A DNA stretch of 64,000 nt from Oscillospiraceae bacterium (GTDB lineage: Bacteria; Bacillota; Clostridia; Oscillospirales; Oscillospiraceae), in the NCBI GenBank assembly GCA_015068025.1, contig SVLH01000003.1, positions 27,018 through 91,017 on the forward strand. The letters run 5' to 3'. This document shows, one piece after another, positions 26,551-31,451 of the stretch (position 1 is the first letter of the stretch; every line of letters begins with the position of its first letter). The notes beneath the pieces were generated by a model. The model made no database searches, was not told the origin of the DNA, and was given only the letters and a program-made list of their open reading frames with translations. The position numbers and the translations under genes were made by a program.

Positions 26551-27204
26551 TTACTTCTCCTCTTGTGCGGCCACACCCGCCGCCACATCCGCGCGAAACG
26601 CATCCCACGCCTGCGGCTGCTCCACATAGTACAGCGGACAGCGCTTGCCGGTAACGTCGTAATGGCGGATGACGTCCTCCGCCGGATCCAGCGCAAACTG
26701 TCGGCACAGCCACGCCGTCAGCTCCACGGTCCGCGCATAGGTCACAGGGGAAAAGATGCCCGTTTCATCGTTGTGGCAAACCTCAACGGCCACCGTGTCG
26801 CCGTTGCGGCCGTTGGAGGCGTAGGCGATCTCCGTCAGAGGAATGCACTGAACCACCTCCCCCTCCAGCCCTACGATGAAGTGGCTGCTGGCGTAGGTCT
26901 TGTTCCTCCCCAGCGCCAGAGATGCGAAATAATTGCGGTTTGCCTGCGCCGAGGTGCCGGGGTTGCCTACATAATGGATAACGACACCTTTAATGTTCCT
27001 CAAGGTGCTGCCAGAGCGGGAATATCGGTTTTTCGGCAGGAAATCCGCCGTCACATAGTCCGGCACGGCCACGCCCGCCGCTTCCGCCCCCGCCCCACCT
27101 GCAAGGCGGAGCACCAGCAGCACACTGTTGGCCAGCACCAGCGCGGCCAGAATGCATAACAGCACGAATTGAGGCCGGAGCCGCCGTCTTTTGTGTCCTT
27201 CCAT
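26551..27204 (-). CDS. N-acetylmuramoyl-L-alanine amidase (Amidase_2 type)
   Basis: 217 residues: an N-terminal membrane anchor (about 12-34), then an Amidase_2/PGRP domain. Zinc-ligand candidates are His in VVIHYVGN and His in IRHYDVTGKRCPLYY, with the usual Cys near the third ligand position. It would cut the MurNAc-L-Ala bond in peptidoglycan on the outer face. It starts 3 bp after the ABC permease stop without a good ribosome site, so translation is probably coupled to that gene. Confidence 0.88.
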   Translation of the reverse strand: MEGHKRRRLRPQFVLLCILAALVLANSVLLVLRLAGGAGAEAAGVAVPDYVTADFLPKNRYSRSGSTLRNIKGVVIHYVGNPGTSAQANRNYFASLALGRNKTYASSHFIVGLEGEVVQCIPLTEIAYASNGRNGDTVAVEVCHNDETGIFSPVTYARTVELTAWLCRQFALDPAEDVIRHYDVTGKRCPLYYVEQPQAWDAFRADVAAGVAAQEEK

Positions 27205-27207
27205 GGC

Positions 27208-29346
27208 TCAGCCGCCGGTGACATAGACCGCCGTGGGGCCGTCGGCGCCGCCGATGATGCCCACGGAGGACTCGCTCACAGCGCCGGCGATGATGTCCTC
27301 CACAGTGGGAGCGGAATTTGGGTTCGGGGTGACGTCCTCCGTTGAGGGAATGGGGCGGGGCACATAGGAGGCGCTGTCGTACACATCCTCATAGGCGATG
27401 CCGAACTTCTCCTCCCAGAGCTTGATCTCCTCCATTTTCAGCAGTTCCTCGTCGGTGTACTGCTCGGGATAGAGCTGCTGGTAGGTTACCAGCTGATCCG
27501 GTGTCACCAGCCCCAGCGCCAGCAGCGCATCCACGGTGTGTGTCATCCCGGGGCGGATGTTGATATCCAGATAATCGTGCAGGGTGAAGTCCGCGCCAGC
27601 TTCCGTATATTCTTTCTTCACGAATTCCAGAGAAAGGCTTACGGCGTATTCCGCGGCGTTGCTGCGGTCAAACCAGTTATAGGTGCCCCAGGTGCCCGCC
27701 TTGGCGTCCAGACACACGGCCTCCCAGATGGCACGAGCCTCCCGGTCGCTGAGTGAGAACGCCTCCTGCTTCTTTTCCACATACAGGTTTCCGCTCTCCA
27801 CGACATAGCCGCTGCCGCCGCCATGGAGGCGCTTGGTCTTCATCTCGGCACTGTTCACAAGGCGATCCAGCACGAAATCGTAGGTGCCGGGCGTTTCCAT
27901 GCGCTCCGGCGTCACCACCAGAGAATAGCGGCGGGAGAGTGTCGTTCCGTTCCGCAGATTGTAGGTAAGGCGGACGGTGGTGGTCGTGACAGAGCTTCCG
28001 TTACGCCCCCGCTCGTCATAGGCCCGGGCGGCGTAGTCCGCATCCTGCGCGATAGCCAGATGTGCGGCACGCACCTGCTCCAGCAGTGCATCCTCCTCGC
28101 CGGGATAGAAGGTGTAGTTGTTGCCGGCGGCGTAGAAGGTGACGCTCTTCACCTCCCGGATCTTCGGCACGCGTTCCTCTACGCCCAGCAGGTCGAAGTG
28201 CAGCACGCAGCAAACTGCCGCGGCAAACACGGCCGTAGCCGCCAGGCCCTTCAGGCTGCCCCGGAATACCCGCAGGGATTTTGCCAGCAGCATACTGGCA
28301 GTGTAATAGCCGATGGCGCCGGAGATCAGCATGCACACAGCCATAGGGAAAGCCTCGTAATACTTGCCGTACTGGAAGTTCCGCCAGAATATCTCATACA
28401 GGGCAATGCCGCCCAGCATGGCGCTGCAGACGGTAACGCCCCAGCGGAATACGGGTTTCATCCAGCGAACCGACACCACATCGCCGGCGCTCTCGCTGCG
28501 GCGGCGGCTGTACAGCAGCCACGCCGCGCCCAGCAGCGCCAGGCCTGCCAGCGCATAGACCGCGATGAGCCAGCCGTTTTCCAGCGTGACGGCAGAGATC
28601 TCGCTCCTCCAGTAGCCGCCGAGGCGGTGGCTGGAGTCTTCTATGAACCGCTCGGTATACTCACTATGGGTGCTGACATGCCGCATCAGGTACACCGTGG
28701 GGGATAGAAACTCCGCCGTGCCGGTATAGCTGCCGGATACGCCGAACAGGAAGCCCTGCGCAAACAGGCACACCAGCGCGTCCAGCGCAACCGCCAGGAA
28801 GTGGAAGACGAAGTACAGCACCGGCATGGCAAAAAGATTGCCGGTGACGAAGGCCACCGCCGTGGCAGAGGCAAAGTAGAACAAGCTCTCGCCGACGACT
28901 GCCAGAATGGTCACAAGGATGCCCACCGGCTCAAAGCCGCCGAAGCAGGAAAAGATCAGGATGGCAAGGCCGCCGGTGATGACATAGGGGATGAGCATCA
29001 TGGCCATGCCGGAGAGGAAGTTCGTGACAAACAGTCCCTCACGGCGGATGGGCAGGGTGTGCATCAGTCCCACGCCGCGGGGGTTGAACAAATAGCTCCA
29101 CACCGCAACGGCCACCAGAATGGCGTAGATCAGAGAAACGATGGGCACGCCGTAGGCCACGATGCCGTAATAGATCTCCGTGGCCGACAGCGGTTTCATC
29201 CAGCTGTCATTGTAGCGCAGCAGCTGCGTCAGTGCCGCCAGCGGAAACAGTGCGCCGATGAAAGAAGGCGCGGCCCACAGCGGCCAGAACCGGGTCAGAT
29301 TCTTACGAAACAGCGTTGCATTAAAGAACGATCTCTTTGACAGCAT
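27208..29346 (-). CDS. ABC-2 type transporter permease, large
   Basis: 712 residues from the ATG at 29346 (GGGAGGT upstream; ORF-track start 7 codons earlier rejected). Six or seven membrane helices in the first 290 residues, two or three more near 310-400, then a long C-terminal part that lacks strong hydrophobic segments and ends in a Ser/Asn-rich and Gly-rich tail (GIIGGADGPTAVYVTGG). It pairs with the ATPase whose gene overlaps it by 26 bp. Likely exports or senses a membrane-active compound, as in GntR-controlled Ytr-type systems; substrate unknown. Confidence 0.85.
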   Translation of the reverse strand: MLSKRSFFNATLFRKNLTRFWPLWAAPSFIGALFPLAALTQLLRYNDSWMKPLSATEIYYGIVAYGVPIVSLIYAILVAVAVWSYLFNPRGVGLMHTLPIRREGLFVTNFLSGMAMMLIPYVITGGLAILIFSCFGGFEPVGILVTILAVVGESLFYFASATAVAFVTGNLFAMPVLYFVFHFLAVALDALVCLFAQGFLFGVSGSYTGTAEFLSPTVYLMRHVSTHSEYTERFIEDSSHRLGGYWRSEISAVTLENGWLIAVYALAGLALLGAAWLLYSRRRSESAGDVVSVRWMKPVFRWGVTVCSAMLGGIALYEIFWRNFQYGKYYEAFPMAVCMLISGAIGYYTASMLLAKSLRVFRGSLKGLAATAVFAAAVCCVLHFDLLGVEERVPKIREVKSVTFYAAGNNYTFYPGEEDALLEQVRAAHLAIAQDADYAARAYDERGRNGSSVTTTTVRLTYNLRNGTTLSRRYSLVVTPERMETPGTYDFVLDRLVNSAEMKTKRLHGGGSGYVVESGNLYVEKKQEAFSLSDREARAIWEAVCLDAKAGTWGTYNWFDRSNAAEYAVSLSLEFVKKEYTEAGADFTLHDYLDINIRPGMTHTVDALLALGLVTPDQLVTYQQLYPEQYTDEELLKMEEIKLWEEKFGIAYEDVYDSASYVPRPIPSTEDVTPNPNSAPTVEDIIAGAVSESSVGIIGGADGPTAVYVTGG

Positions 29347-30217
29347 AGTCCACACCTCCCAGTTCATAGATAAAGATCTCCTCCAGCGTCAGAGGAATGG
29401 CATCCACCAGCAGCGGCGCATAGGGCGCAAGCCGTGCCGTGGCCTCCTCGGCACCTGCGCGCAGGATGATGGTATGCACCCGGCCGATACGGGACGTATG
29501 CAGAGCGCCCAACTCGGCAGGGACTTCCTCCATGCCCTCGCCAAACACCACCTGCAGCTTCACCATGTTGTCCTGCAGCTGCACAAGACTGCGTTCCAGC
29601 AGCACCTTGCCGTGTTCCATAATGCCTACATGGTCGCAGACATCCTCCAGCTCCCGGAGGTTGTGGGAGGAGACCAGCACCGTGGTGCCCCGCTCTGCCA
29701 CATCGCCCATCATCAAGCTCCAGATCTGGCGGCGCATCACGGGGTCGAGACCGTCCACCGGCTCGTCGAGGATCAGATAGTCCGGCATGCAGGAAAGCGC
29801 CAGCCAGAAGGCCACCTGCTTCTGCATACCCTTGGACAGGCGGCGGATGGCGCGCTTTTCGTCAATGGGAAAGACGTTCTTCAGCTTTTCGTAGCGCTCT
29901 GTGGAAAAGCTGGGGTAAACACCTTTATAAAACCGCATCATGTCCGGGACATTGGCCTGATTAAAATAGTACCAGTCATCGGGAATGGCCGCAATGCGCG
30001 CCTTCAGCGCCGCGTTTTCCCAGATGTCCTGTCCGTCCACGGTGATGACGCCCTCATCCTGCCGGTAAATGCCCGTCAGGTGGCGGATCAGCGTGGACTT
30101 GCCGGCGCCGTTGGGGCCAACTAAACCATATACGCTGCCGGTGGGAACGGTCAGCGTGGCGCCGTCCAGCGCCGCAAAGCCGTCAAAGGTCTTGACGACG
30201 TTTTTTACTTCGATCAT
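29321..30217 (-). CDS. ABC transporter ATP-binding protein
   Basis: 298 residues. Walker A GPNGAGKST, the signature appears as RLSKGMQKQ (a variant of LSGGQ), Walker B YLILDEPVDGLDP, and the switch His in VSSHN. The start ATG at 30217 overlaps the GntR stop in an ATGA junction and has AGGAGG upstream; the ORF-track start 15 codons earlier is rejected. It energises the adjacent permease. The family with this signature commonly serves bacitracin-like or cell-envelope-stress exporters. Confidence 0.93.
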   Translation of the reverse strand: MIEVKNVVKTFDGFAALDGATLTVPTGSVYGLVGPNGAGKSTLIRHLTGIYRQDEGVITVDGQDIWENAALKARIAAIPDDWYYFNQANVPDMMRFYKGVYPSFSTERYEKLKNVFPIDEKRAIRRLSKGMQKQVAFWLALSCMPDYLILDEPVDGLDPVMRRQIWSLMMGDVAERGTTVLVSSHNLRELEDVCDHVGIMEHGKVLLERSLVQLQDNMVKLQVVFGEGMEEVPAELGALHTSRIGRVHTIILRAGAEEATARLAPYAPLLVDAIPLTLEEIFIYELGGVDYAVKEIVL

Positions 30218-30609
30218 ACAGGTTCCTCCTCTCCTGTTCCCTTGGAGAAACTTGCGGGGCACTCCTTCACCAGCGCCGCCAGTTCCTCCTCGTCCACACC
30301 CAGATACCGCAGCTCCGCTGCCAGTTCCCGGATCTTCTCCACCAGTTCCCGCTTGCGGCTCTCGCCTCCGTCCACCACGGCGGCGGCAAAGCTGCCCTTG
30401 CCGGGGATGGAGTAGATAAAGCCCTCATTTTCCAGCTCGTTATACGCCCGCTGGATGGTGTTGGGATTGATGGAAAGCTGCTGCGCCAGCGCACGGACCG
30501 AGGGAAGCTTCTCATCCGGCGACATGGCGCCGCTGACGATCAGCTTTTTCAGTCCGTCGCGGATCTGCTCATAGATCGGGCGGGAATCCCGATAATTCAG
30601 CGTGAGCAT
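30214..30609 (-). CDS. GntR/YtrA-family transcriptional regulator
   Basis: 131 residues. A winged helix at 8-75 (PIYEQIRDGLKKLIVSGAM, LPSVRALAQQLSINPNTIQRAYNELENEGF) and a short helical C-terminal dimerisation region, the YtrA subfamily layout. It should repress its own operon through the palindrome at 30836-30853. Two membrane microprotein genes precede it, and their AGGAGG stop-codon context supplies its ribosome site. It is translationally coupled to the ATPase gene. Confidence 0.92.
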   Translation of the reverse strand: MLTLNYRDSRPIYEQIRDGLKKLIVSGAMSPDEKLPSVRALAQQLSINPNTIQRAYNELENEGFIYSIPGKGSFAAAVVDGGESRKRELVEKIRELAAELRYLGVDEEELAALVKECPASFSKGTGEEEPV

Positions 30610-30613
30610 CCCC

Positions 30614-30715
30614 TCACCTCCTGCTTAAAAAAATCACCAGCGCCACAAGACCGGTCACGGCGGCCGCCACCGCCACACCCAGCGCGATCAATCTCACCAT
30701 AGGAACGCGAACCAT
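30614..30715 (-). CDS. Membrane microprotein 2 (33 aa)
   Basis: 33 residues, below the ORF-track limit. It begins with MVRVPMVRLIAL, forms one hydrophobic helix rich in Ala, Val and Leu, and ends FLSRR. Start ATG at 30715 is preceded by GCAGGAGGTGA, which is also the end of the preceding microprotein gene. Its own last codons AGG-AGG-TGA form the ribosome site of gntR. Predicted single-span membrane peptide, possibly a subunit or regulator of the downstream ABC transporter. Confidence 0.75.
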   Translation of the reverse strand: MVRVPMVRLIALGVAVAAAVTGLVALVIFLSRR

Positions 30716-30719
30716 TTCG

Positions 30720-30806
30720 TCACCTCCTGCTCAAAAAGAATACCAACAGTGCAAATACTGTAAACAAAACGACGCCGCCGATCAGCGCCAGAGGAACTAT
30801 CGCCAT
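30720..30806 (-). CDS. Membrane microprotein 1 (28 aa)
   Basis: 28 residues, the first gene of the GntR-ABC transcript. MAIVPLALIGG is followed by a hydrophobic helix and the ending FFLSRR, identical in its last four residues to microprotein 2. GGGAGGTGA lies upstream of the ATG at 30806. The last codons AGG-AGG-TGA double as the ribosome site for microprotein 2, 4 bp away, so translation is tightly coupled. Confidence 0.75.
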   Translation of the reverse strand: MAIVPLALIGGVVLFTVFALLVFFLSRR

Positions 30807-30835
30807 ACAGGTCACCTCCCGTGTCAAACTGTATC

Positions 30836-30882
30836 AACTGTATTAGTACAGTTAGGCTATCACGGCGAGGAACCGCTGTCAA
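30836..30882 (-). promoter_or_regulatory. Promoter and GntR operator of the microprotein-ABC operon
   Basis: Minus-strand TTGACA (30877-30882), 17 bp, TAGCCT (30854-30859). Adjoining the -10 on the start-site side is the palindrome AACTGTATTAGTACAGTT (30836-30853), typical of YtrA-type operators, followed by an extra half-site AACTGTAT at 30827-30834. The remainder of 30883-31046 shows no gene. Confidence 0.75.
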
Positions 30883-31046
30883 TTACAATTTGGTAACAAT
30901 GGAACTTTTTTGCTTTTGCGCCGCTTTCTTGTGGTCGGCGCGCCGCGGAAACACTATCTGTGGTGCGCAGTGCAAAAAAATTGGCAAAGAAACGGAATTT
31001 GTCCGGGAAACGCGGATAAAATTGTTCAAAAATAAGAAAAATCCTC

Positions 31047-31075
31047 TTTACATCCGCACTTTTGTATGGTATGGT
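31047..31075 (+). promoter_or_regulatory. Promoter of rpsO
   Basis: TTTACA (31047-31052), 17 bp, TATGGT (31070-31075), about 110 bp upstream of the start codon. Confidence 0.55.
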
Positions 31076-31184
31076 ATTTGGGCACGCGAATGTGCGAAAC
31101 AGCCCTGAAGCTTCGTTTTGCGGATTGTTCACCTGTCCCGGGACGCAGTTTTGCGGGTAATATTTATGAAAGGTGGAAACTACC

Positions 31185-31451
31185 ATGCTGCGCAAAGAAC
31201 AGAAGACTGCTATCATCGACGCCAACCGTACCCACGAGACCGACACCGGCTCCCCCGAGGTTCAGATCGCTATCCTGACCGAGCGGATCAATGTGCTCAC
31301 CGAGCACATGCGCGCCAATCCCCAGGACAAGCACTCCAACCGCGGCCTGCTGAAGATGGTCGGTAAGCGCCGCAGCCTGCTGGATTACCTGCAGAAGAAG
31401 GACATCGAGCGCTATCGTGCTCTGATCGCCAAGCTGGGCATCCGTAAGTAA
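31185..31451 (+). CDS. rpsO: 30S ribosomal protein S15
   Basis: 88 residues from the ATG at 31185, with AAAGGTGG upstream; the GTG at 31173 would sit inside that ribosome site and is rejected. Typical S15: [25 protein letters not shown] and the 16S-rRNA-binding region [17 protein letters not shown]. It binds the central domain of 16S rRNA early in 30S assembly. The rpsO-pnp order is conserved across bacteria. Confidence 0.98.

Follow-up and report, generated by a model that had tools for sequence, protein, structure and literature searches.

Membrane microprotein genes at the head of a GntR-controlled ABC transporter operon in Oscillospiraceae

Two very short genes, mp1 and mp2, precede the repressor gene of an Oscillospiraceae operon for a probable envelope ABC transporter. 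Comparison with related loci shows that both are genuine, conserved genes for membrane microproteins. We report these genes, their conservation among relatives, the operon and its operator, as found in a window of 64,000 nucleotides (the whole stretch of DNA analysed) that is part of a 1.54-Mb, 71%-complete assembly. The initial annotation had proposed two genes of 28 and 33 codons, each encoding one hydrophobic helix and ending FLSRR; frames and helices were confirmed. What is conserved in related loci is the helix with an Arg or Lys end, while the fusion of stop codon and Shine-Dalgarno sequence (SD) seen in the window is a feature of a subset. We give roughly even weight for and against a full reading in which the products are translated, YtrG-like, single-pass membrane microproteins, made with coupled translation from the mRNA of a GntR-repressed envelope ABC operon, and act as optional modulators of the permease.

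The operon lies on the minus strand in the order promoter/operator, mp1, mp2, gntR, ABC ATPase, permease, amidase:

30877–30882, minus strand: -35 hexamer TTGACA of the operon promoter, recognised by sequence, with a 17-bp spacer to the -10.
30854–30859, minus strand: -10 hexamer TAGCCT, recognised by sequence.
30828–30852, no strand assigned: YtrA-type operator, inverted repeat ACTGTA-N13-TACAGT, directly 3' of the -10.
30720–30806, minus strand: mp1 gene, 28 aa, one hydrophobic helix, ending SRR, class A, with SD GGGAGGTGA upstream and class A relatives in the genus.
30720–30728, minus strand: AGG-AGG-TGA, last codons and stop of mp1 and also SD of mp2.
30614–30715, minus strand: mp2 gene, 33 aa, one hydrophobic helix, ending SRR, class B, having relatives with conserved frame.
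30614–30622, minus strand: AGG-AGG-TGA, last codons and stop of mp2 and also SD of gntR.
30214–30609, minus strand: gntR, short YtrA/PmtR-like GntR repressor, 131 aa (PF00392, 1.1e-16; NF047563 PmtR below cut-off).
29321–30217, minus strand: ABC ATPase, 298 aa (PF00005, 2.5e-24), start set from sequence and orthologues.
27208–29367, minus strand: ABC-2-like permease, 719 aa, including a large soluble part, assigned from an AlphaFold model, weak Foldseek matches and Pfam matches in some orthologues.
26551–27204, minus strand: membrane-anchored N-acetylmuramoyl-L-alanine amidase, 217 aa (PF01510, 2.1e-22).

The gntR stop and the ATPase start share ATGA, which leaves the operon tightly packed along its whole length. 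It had been described as a GntR-ABC-amidase operon, which left the 719-aa permease unnamed as a gene of its own. Orthologous loci were gathered with the GntR protein (E ≤ 1e-36) in 73 of the 86 genomes searched of the genus, the Dysosmobacter/Oscillibacter group; the nearest relatives that have names are Oscillospiraceae under the labels Oscillibacter or Dysosmobacter. By a simple pattern, the operator-overlapping -35/-10 pair was matched in 51 of these 73 loci. The N13 inverted repeat was present in 61, and the amidase gene holds the same position in most. The operator half-sites are 13 bp apart, the spacing found in the B. subtilis YtrA operator, AGTGTA-13bp-TACACT (PMC8060467).

The predicted products are MAIVPLALIGGVVLFTVFALLVFFLSRR (28 aa) for mp1 and MVRVPMVRLIALGVAVAAAVTGLVALVIFLSRR (33 aa) for mp2. 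Both end FLSRR, and in both the SRR and stop are written AGC-AGG-AGG-TGA. The peptide helices are uniformly hydrophobic (mean Eisenberg hydrophobicity 0.75–1.02, moment 0.02–0.12). No family in Pfam or NCBIfam covers mp1 or mp2; matches to TM_ErbB1, Fusion_gly, PVV_CTERM and Rumino_NPXTG fell below every cut-off and were set aside as composition matches. PADLOC returned no match for the peptides or the permease; for gntR it gave helix-turn-helix matches, all of them weak. In size, single helix and basic C-terminus the peptides resemble type I-like toxins. We nevertheless find it scarcely credible that they are small hydrophobic toxins silenced by antisense RNA. Rfam gave no match on either strand of 30100–31300 (though it would miss unknown antisense RNAs), and the tandem copies are built into a repressed transporter operon, not a free-standing cassette.

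At both junctions AGGAGGTGA is a full SD, and the next ATG stands 4 nt past each microprotein stop (mp2 start 30715, gntR start 30609). The initial annotation had taken AGG-AGG-TGA to be the SD of the next gene, first mp2 and then gntR, as is indeed seen at both places. A pattern search for the strict form, AGGAGGTGAN3-7ATG, gave five occurrences in the whole 1.54-Mb assembly. Only those at the mp1 and mp2 junctions close long frames, namely open frames of nearly 40 codons holding the microprotein genes; the other three are ordinary intergenic SDs whose upstream open frames run 6–15 codons. Across the genus, fused AGG-AGG-TGA was found at 13 junctions in 11 loci. Where there is no fusion, the same kind of peptide ends in Arg or Lys and the next gene has its SD beyond the stop; one such peptide (locus L193) ends CGG-CGG-TAG, its arginines in other codons. 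Every class A or class B peptide has Arg or Lys as its last residue (classes A–E were sorted by eye from the sequences). Where the SD stands apart, other codons still write the basic end, so C-terminal basicity is held at the protein level. Dual use of AGG-AGG is an economy where a peptide abuts the next gene.

A stop-to-start distance between -8 and +10 nt is taken to predict termination-reinitiation coupling, and gene pairs in this range are enriched for subunits of complexes (PMC10666635). The present junctions share the very short gap of such pairs; coupled pairs usually overlap by 1–4 nt, whereas here the gap is +4 and the stop codon lies within a full SD. This anatomy supports probable translational coupling from mp1 to mp2 to gntR. 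The suggestion that the fused site locks translation together is supported by the 4-nt gap, which falls in the predictive range (PMC10666635); the fusion itself was over-read, as it is not the conserved feature.

We found SD-preceded single-helix ORFs between operator and gntR in 23 of the 73 genus loci (window included), as one copy (12 loci), two (7) or three (4); upstream contig ends are short in L098 and a few others, where peptides may be undercounted. A family-wide sample supplied 60 further loci. Peptides were present in all 11 from sister genera (6/6 in g101, 4/4 in g45, two of these scored by eye for their weak SD, and 1/1 in g50) and in 0 of 49 from other genera of the family. Leaders of paralogous GntR loci of the genus had such an ORF in 0 of 20 cases. 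A scan of genome contigs found one further Oscillospiraceae record (L140) with a similar ORF. The homologues ahead of GntR-ABC operons that the initial annotation had suggested looking for in related genomes therefore exist, with conserved frames. In every locus examined the peptides stand directly before gntR and never beside the permease.

Chance does not readily produce such ORFs: among 6900 dinucleotide-shuffled versions of the 23 leaders with peptides, 12 held a hydrophobic ORF that follows an SD and has a basic C-terminus, versus 23 of 23 real leaders, and none turned up on the reverse strand of 193 upstream regions. Two upstream ORFs were dropped from the set, one in L076 (at -408) that begins far upstream of the leader and one in L273 (at -92) that overlaps the operator region and has no basic end. 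On a 73-row ATPase tree, in which 32 of 70 inner branches are weak and L096 sits on a very long branch, presence and absence of peptides required 4 changes, against about 20 with shuffled labels. Peptide presence follows clades.

Two kinds of leader stood apart. The one in L096 (G070), the locus with the long ATPase branch, has three peptides that do not resemble the rest; what follows the same kind of leader here may be another transporter or an ORF that was miscalled. In L110, L114 and L116 there is a third, longer class upstream of gntR, 42–43 aa (e.g. MQDFLERLPEALPVSLIPYLLFAGGAALTGLFFALAYILNRRE), which has a charged N-terminal stretch and precedes classes A and B.

Selection was gauged by pN/pS (Nei-Gojobori proportions) in close pairs, each offering few codons; distant pairs are saturated. 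For mp2 and its nearest relative, 94% identical in amino acids, the synonymous proportion was 0.33 and the non-synonymous 0.03, a ratio of 0.09, with third positions accounting for 8 of the 11 differences. Class B pairs within the other clade had ratios mostly of 0.16–0.6, and mp2, about 30% identical to the distant class B peptides, is likely homologous to them. Ratios were 0.09–0.22 for class D (g101 and kin), 0.13 for class E and 0.3–0.85 for class A. Evolution of mp1 is fast (48% identity to its closest relative, ratio 0.59), and selection is the weaker evidence for this gene, which is supported instead by its position, its SD, the helix and the basic end. The permeases of sister genomes are 79% identical versus that 48%, and the peptides differ greatly between clades; for a bound subunit this is loose, and it counts against a modulator role.

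In 50 of the 73 genus loci the operon is kept with no detectable peptide. Since this holds for two thirds of the loci, the exporter does not need a peptide, and the peptides are not obligatory subunits of it. The leaders of these 50 loci are short (about 19–53 nt), and 43 of them fold at -8 kcal/mol or lower. In many (L055, L056, L059, L068, L089 and others) a GC-rich hairpin lies between the operator and the gntR SD. Folding relative to shuffles gave a mean z of -1.1, with z ≤ -2 in 11 of 50; when 18 selected leaders were aligned, both sides had changed in 3 of 8 pairs, and loop and stem vary, some of the changes being compensatory. A hairpin in place of the peptide genes is a lead suggested by these leaders, not a result.

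These leaders bear on a cis-acting explanation, in which translation of the ORFs feeds or blocks the gntR ribosome site and sets the dose of repressor, the peptide itself mattering little or only while nascent. The constant position directly before gntR would fit, as would the 4-nt spacing with its fused SD and a hairpin occupying the same place in peptide-less loci, as if hairpin and ORFs were alternatives. However, purifying selection acts at the amino-acid level, the hydrophobic helix and basic end are kept where the SD is not fused, and the hairpin signal is weak against shuffles. We regard this explanation as unlikely.

The AlphaFold model of the permease (pLDDT 82.6) has an ABC-2-like membrane part; its best Foldseek matches in the PDB, to NosY and ABCG proteins, were weak, none at E ≤ 0.001, and PF12679/PF13346 were detected in some orthologues. 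An envelope role like that of ytr would be the natural reading of the amidase together with the YtrA-type repressor and operator. Although it belongs to an ABC transporter, the permease carries at its C-terminus (27208–27300, minus strand) a low-confidence tail, SSVGIIGGADGPTAVYVTGG, matching a motif from the beta subunit of the Na+-pumping decarboxylase (TIGR01109, PF03977). The tail recurs in many orthologues of the genus; others end differently. A DNA pattern for GGADGPT occurs once in the assembly, and a literature text search found no mention of the string. A tight link of the peptides with the tail GIIGGADGPT was ruled out, many loci having the tail and no peptide.

In S. aureus the GntR protein PmtR represses an ABC operon, and small PSM peptides release it directly (PMC5080381). 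The PmtR-PmtABCD/PSM system shares with ours a short GntR repressor of an ABC operon and the involvement of small peptides (PMC5080381). A rival reading would make mp1 and mp2 exported leaderless peptides, PSM- or bacteriocin-like, and substrates of the ABC exporter. They are short, leaderless, formyl-Met peptides beside a pair with weak similarity to PmtR (NF047563) and PmtA (NF047565). The scores are nonetheless far below the curated cut-offs (69.4–70.4 bits against 200 for PmtR, 128.2 against 350 for PmtA), the helices are uniformly hydrophobic rather than amphipathic, and the operon occurs without the peptides. Export is thus very improbable. A sensor role, with the peptides detecting lipid-II or membrane stress and binding or releasing GntR at the membrane to set induction, can also appeal to the PSM precedent (PMC5080381), and to the encoding of the peptides beside the repressor, not the permease, in every locus seen. 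Most genus loci, though, have repressor and operator with no detectable peptide, and we consider sensing quite unlikely. It is the adjacency to gntR rather than to the permease that keeps the sensor and cis-acting explanations alive.

The best precedent, by operon position and helix, is B. subtilis ytrG. It encodes a small transmembrane protein and is first in ytrGABCDEF, ahead of the gntR-type gene ytrA and ABC genes; lipid-II-cycle antibiotics induce the operon, which affects cell-wall synthesis (PMC12772383). The role and localisation of YtrG are elusive (PMC8060467), and by one account predictions do not place it in its transporter (PMC12772383), which counts against a modulator role here. 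Shared with our operon is a gene for a small one-helix membrane protein that follows the operator and precedes a YtrA-type gntR, heading an ABC operon. By contrast, ytrB–F (two ATPases, two permeases and YtrF) are absent here, replaced by one ATPase, one permease and one amidase, and there are one to three very short peptides, with stop/SD fusion, in only part of the genus. The arrangement of small membrane protein, gntR and ABC genes is therefore already known from ytrG, and that the present one is a strikingly variable YtrG-like variant is well supported. Our literature search brought up no small ORFs preceding GntR-ABC operons of Clostridia, and neither it nor Pfam or NCBIfam yielded a description of short tandem peptides with variable number within one genus and SD-stop fusion.

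The peptides are most likely clade-specific small modulators of the exporter, co-expressed with it. We favour a modulator role because the peptides occupy the same operator-gntR slot in 23/73 genus and 11/11 sister loci, are under purifying selection, keep a basic end and belong to an operon of ytr pattern. Transcription would start at the repressor-controlled promoter once the repressor is released, the signal presumably being lipid-II-cycle stress as in Ytr systems. Ribosomes would translate mp1, terminate at a TGA that lies within the following SD and start again 4 nt further along, yielding mp2, then gntR, then the transporter. The basic end of a membrane helix stays inside (the positive-inside rule), and the helices would accordingly enter the membrane with Arg-Arg on the cytoplasmic side. 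The peptides would then act as small, optional modulators bound to the ABC-2 permease, much as the small membrane protein AcrZ binds the pump AcrB (PMC7267776). AcrZ, KdpF and CydX likewise place a single hydrophobic helix next to a larger membrane complex (PMC7267776, PMC6005532); their partners are of other types, and our peptides are missing from most genus loci.

More broadly, and tentatively, mp1, mp2 and their relatives may form a previously undescribed, fast-changing family of 23–43 aa membrane microproteins, interchangeable modules (0–3 copies) that head a single envelope ABC operon within a single gut Oscillospiraceae clade. A leader hairpin would replace absent modules, and the module would tune repressor dose and exporter activity. 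Conserved genes of 28–33 codons in gut bacteria are of a size often missed by the length cut-offs of gene callers. Orthologous operons with zero, one, two or three peptides amount to a natural experiment on the role of YtrG.
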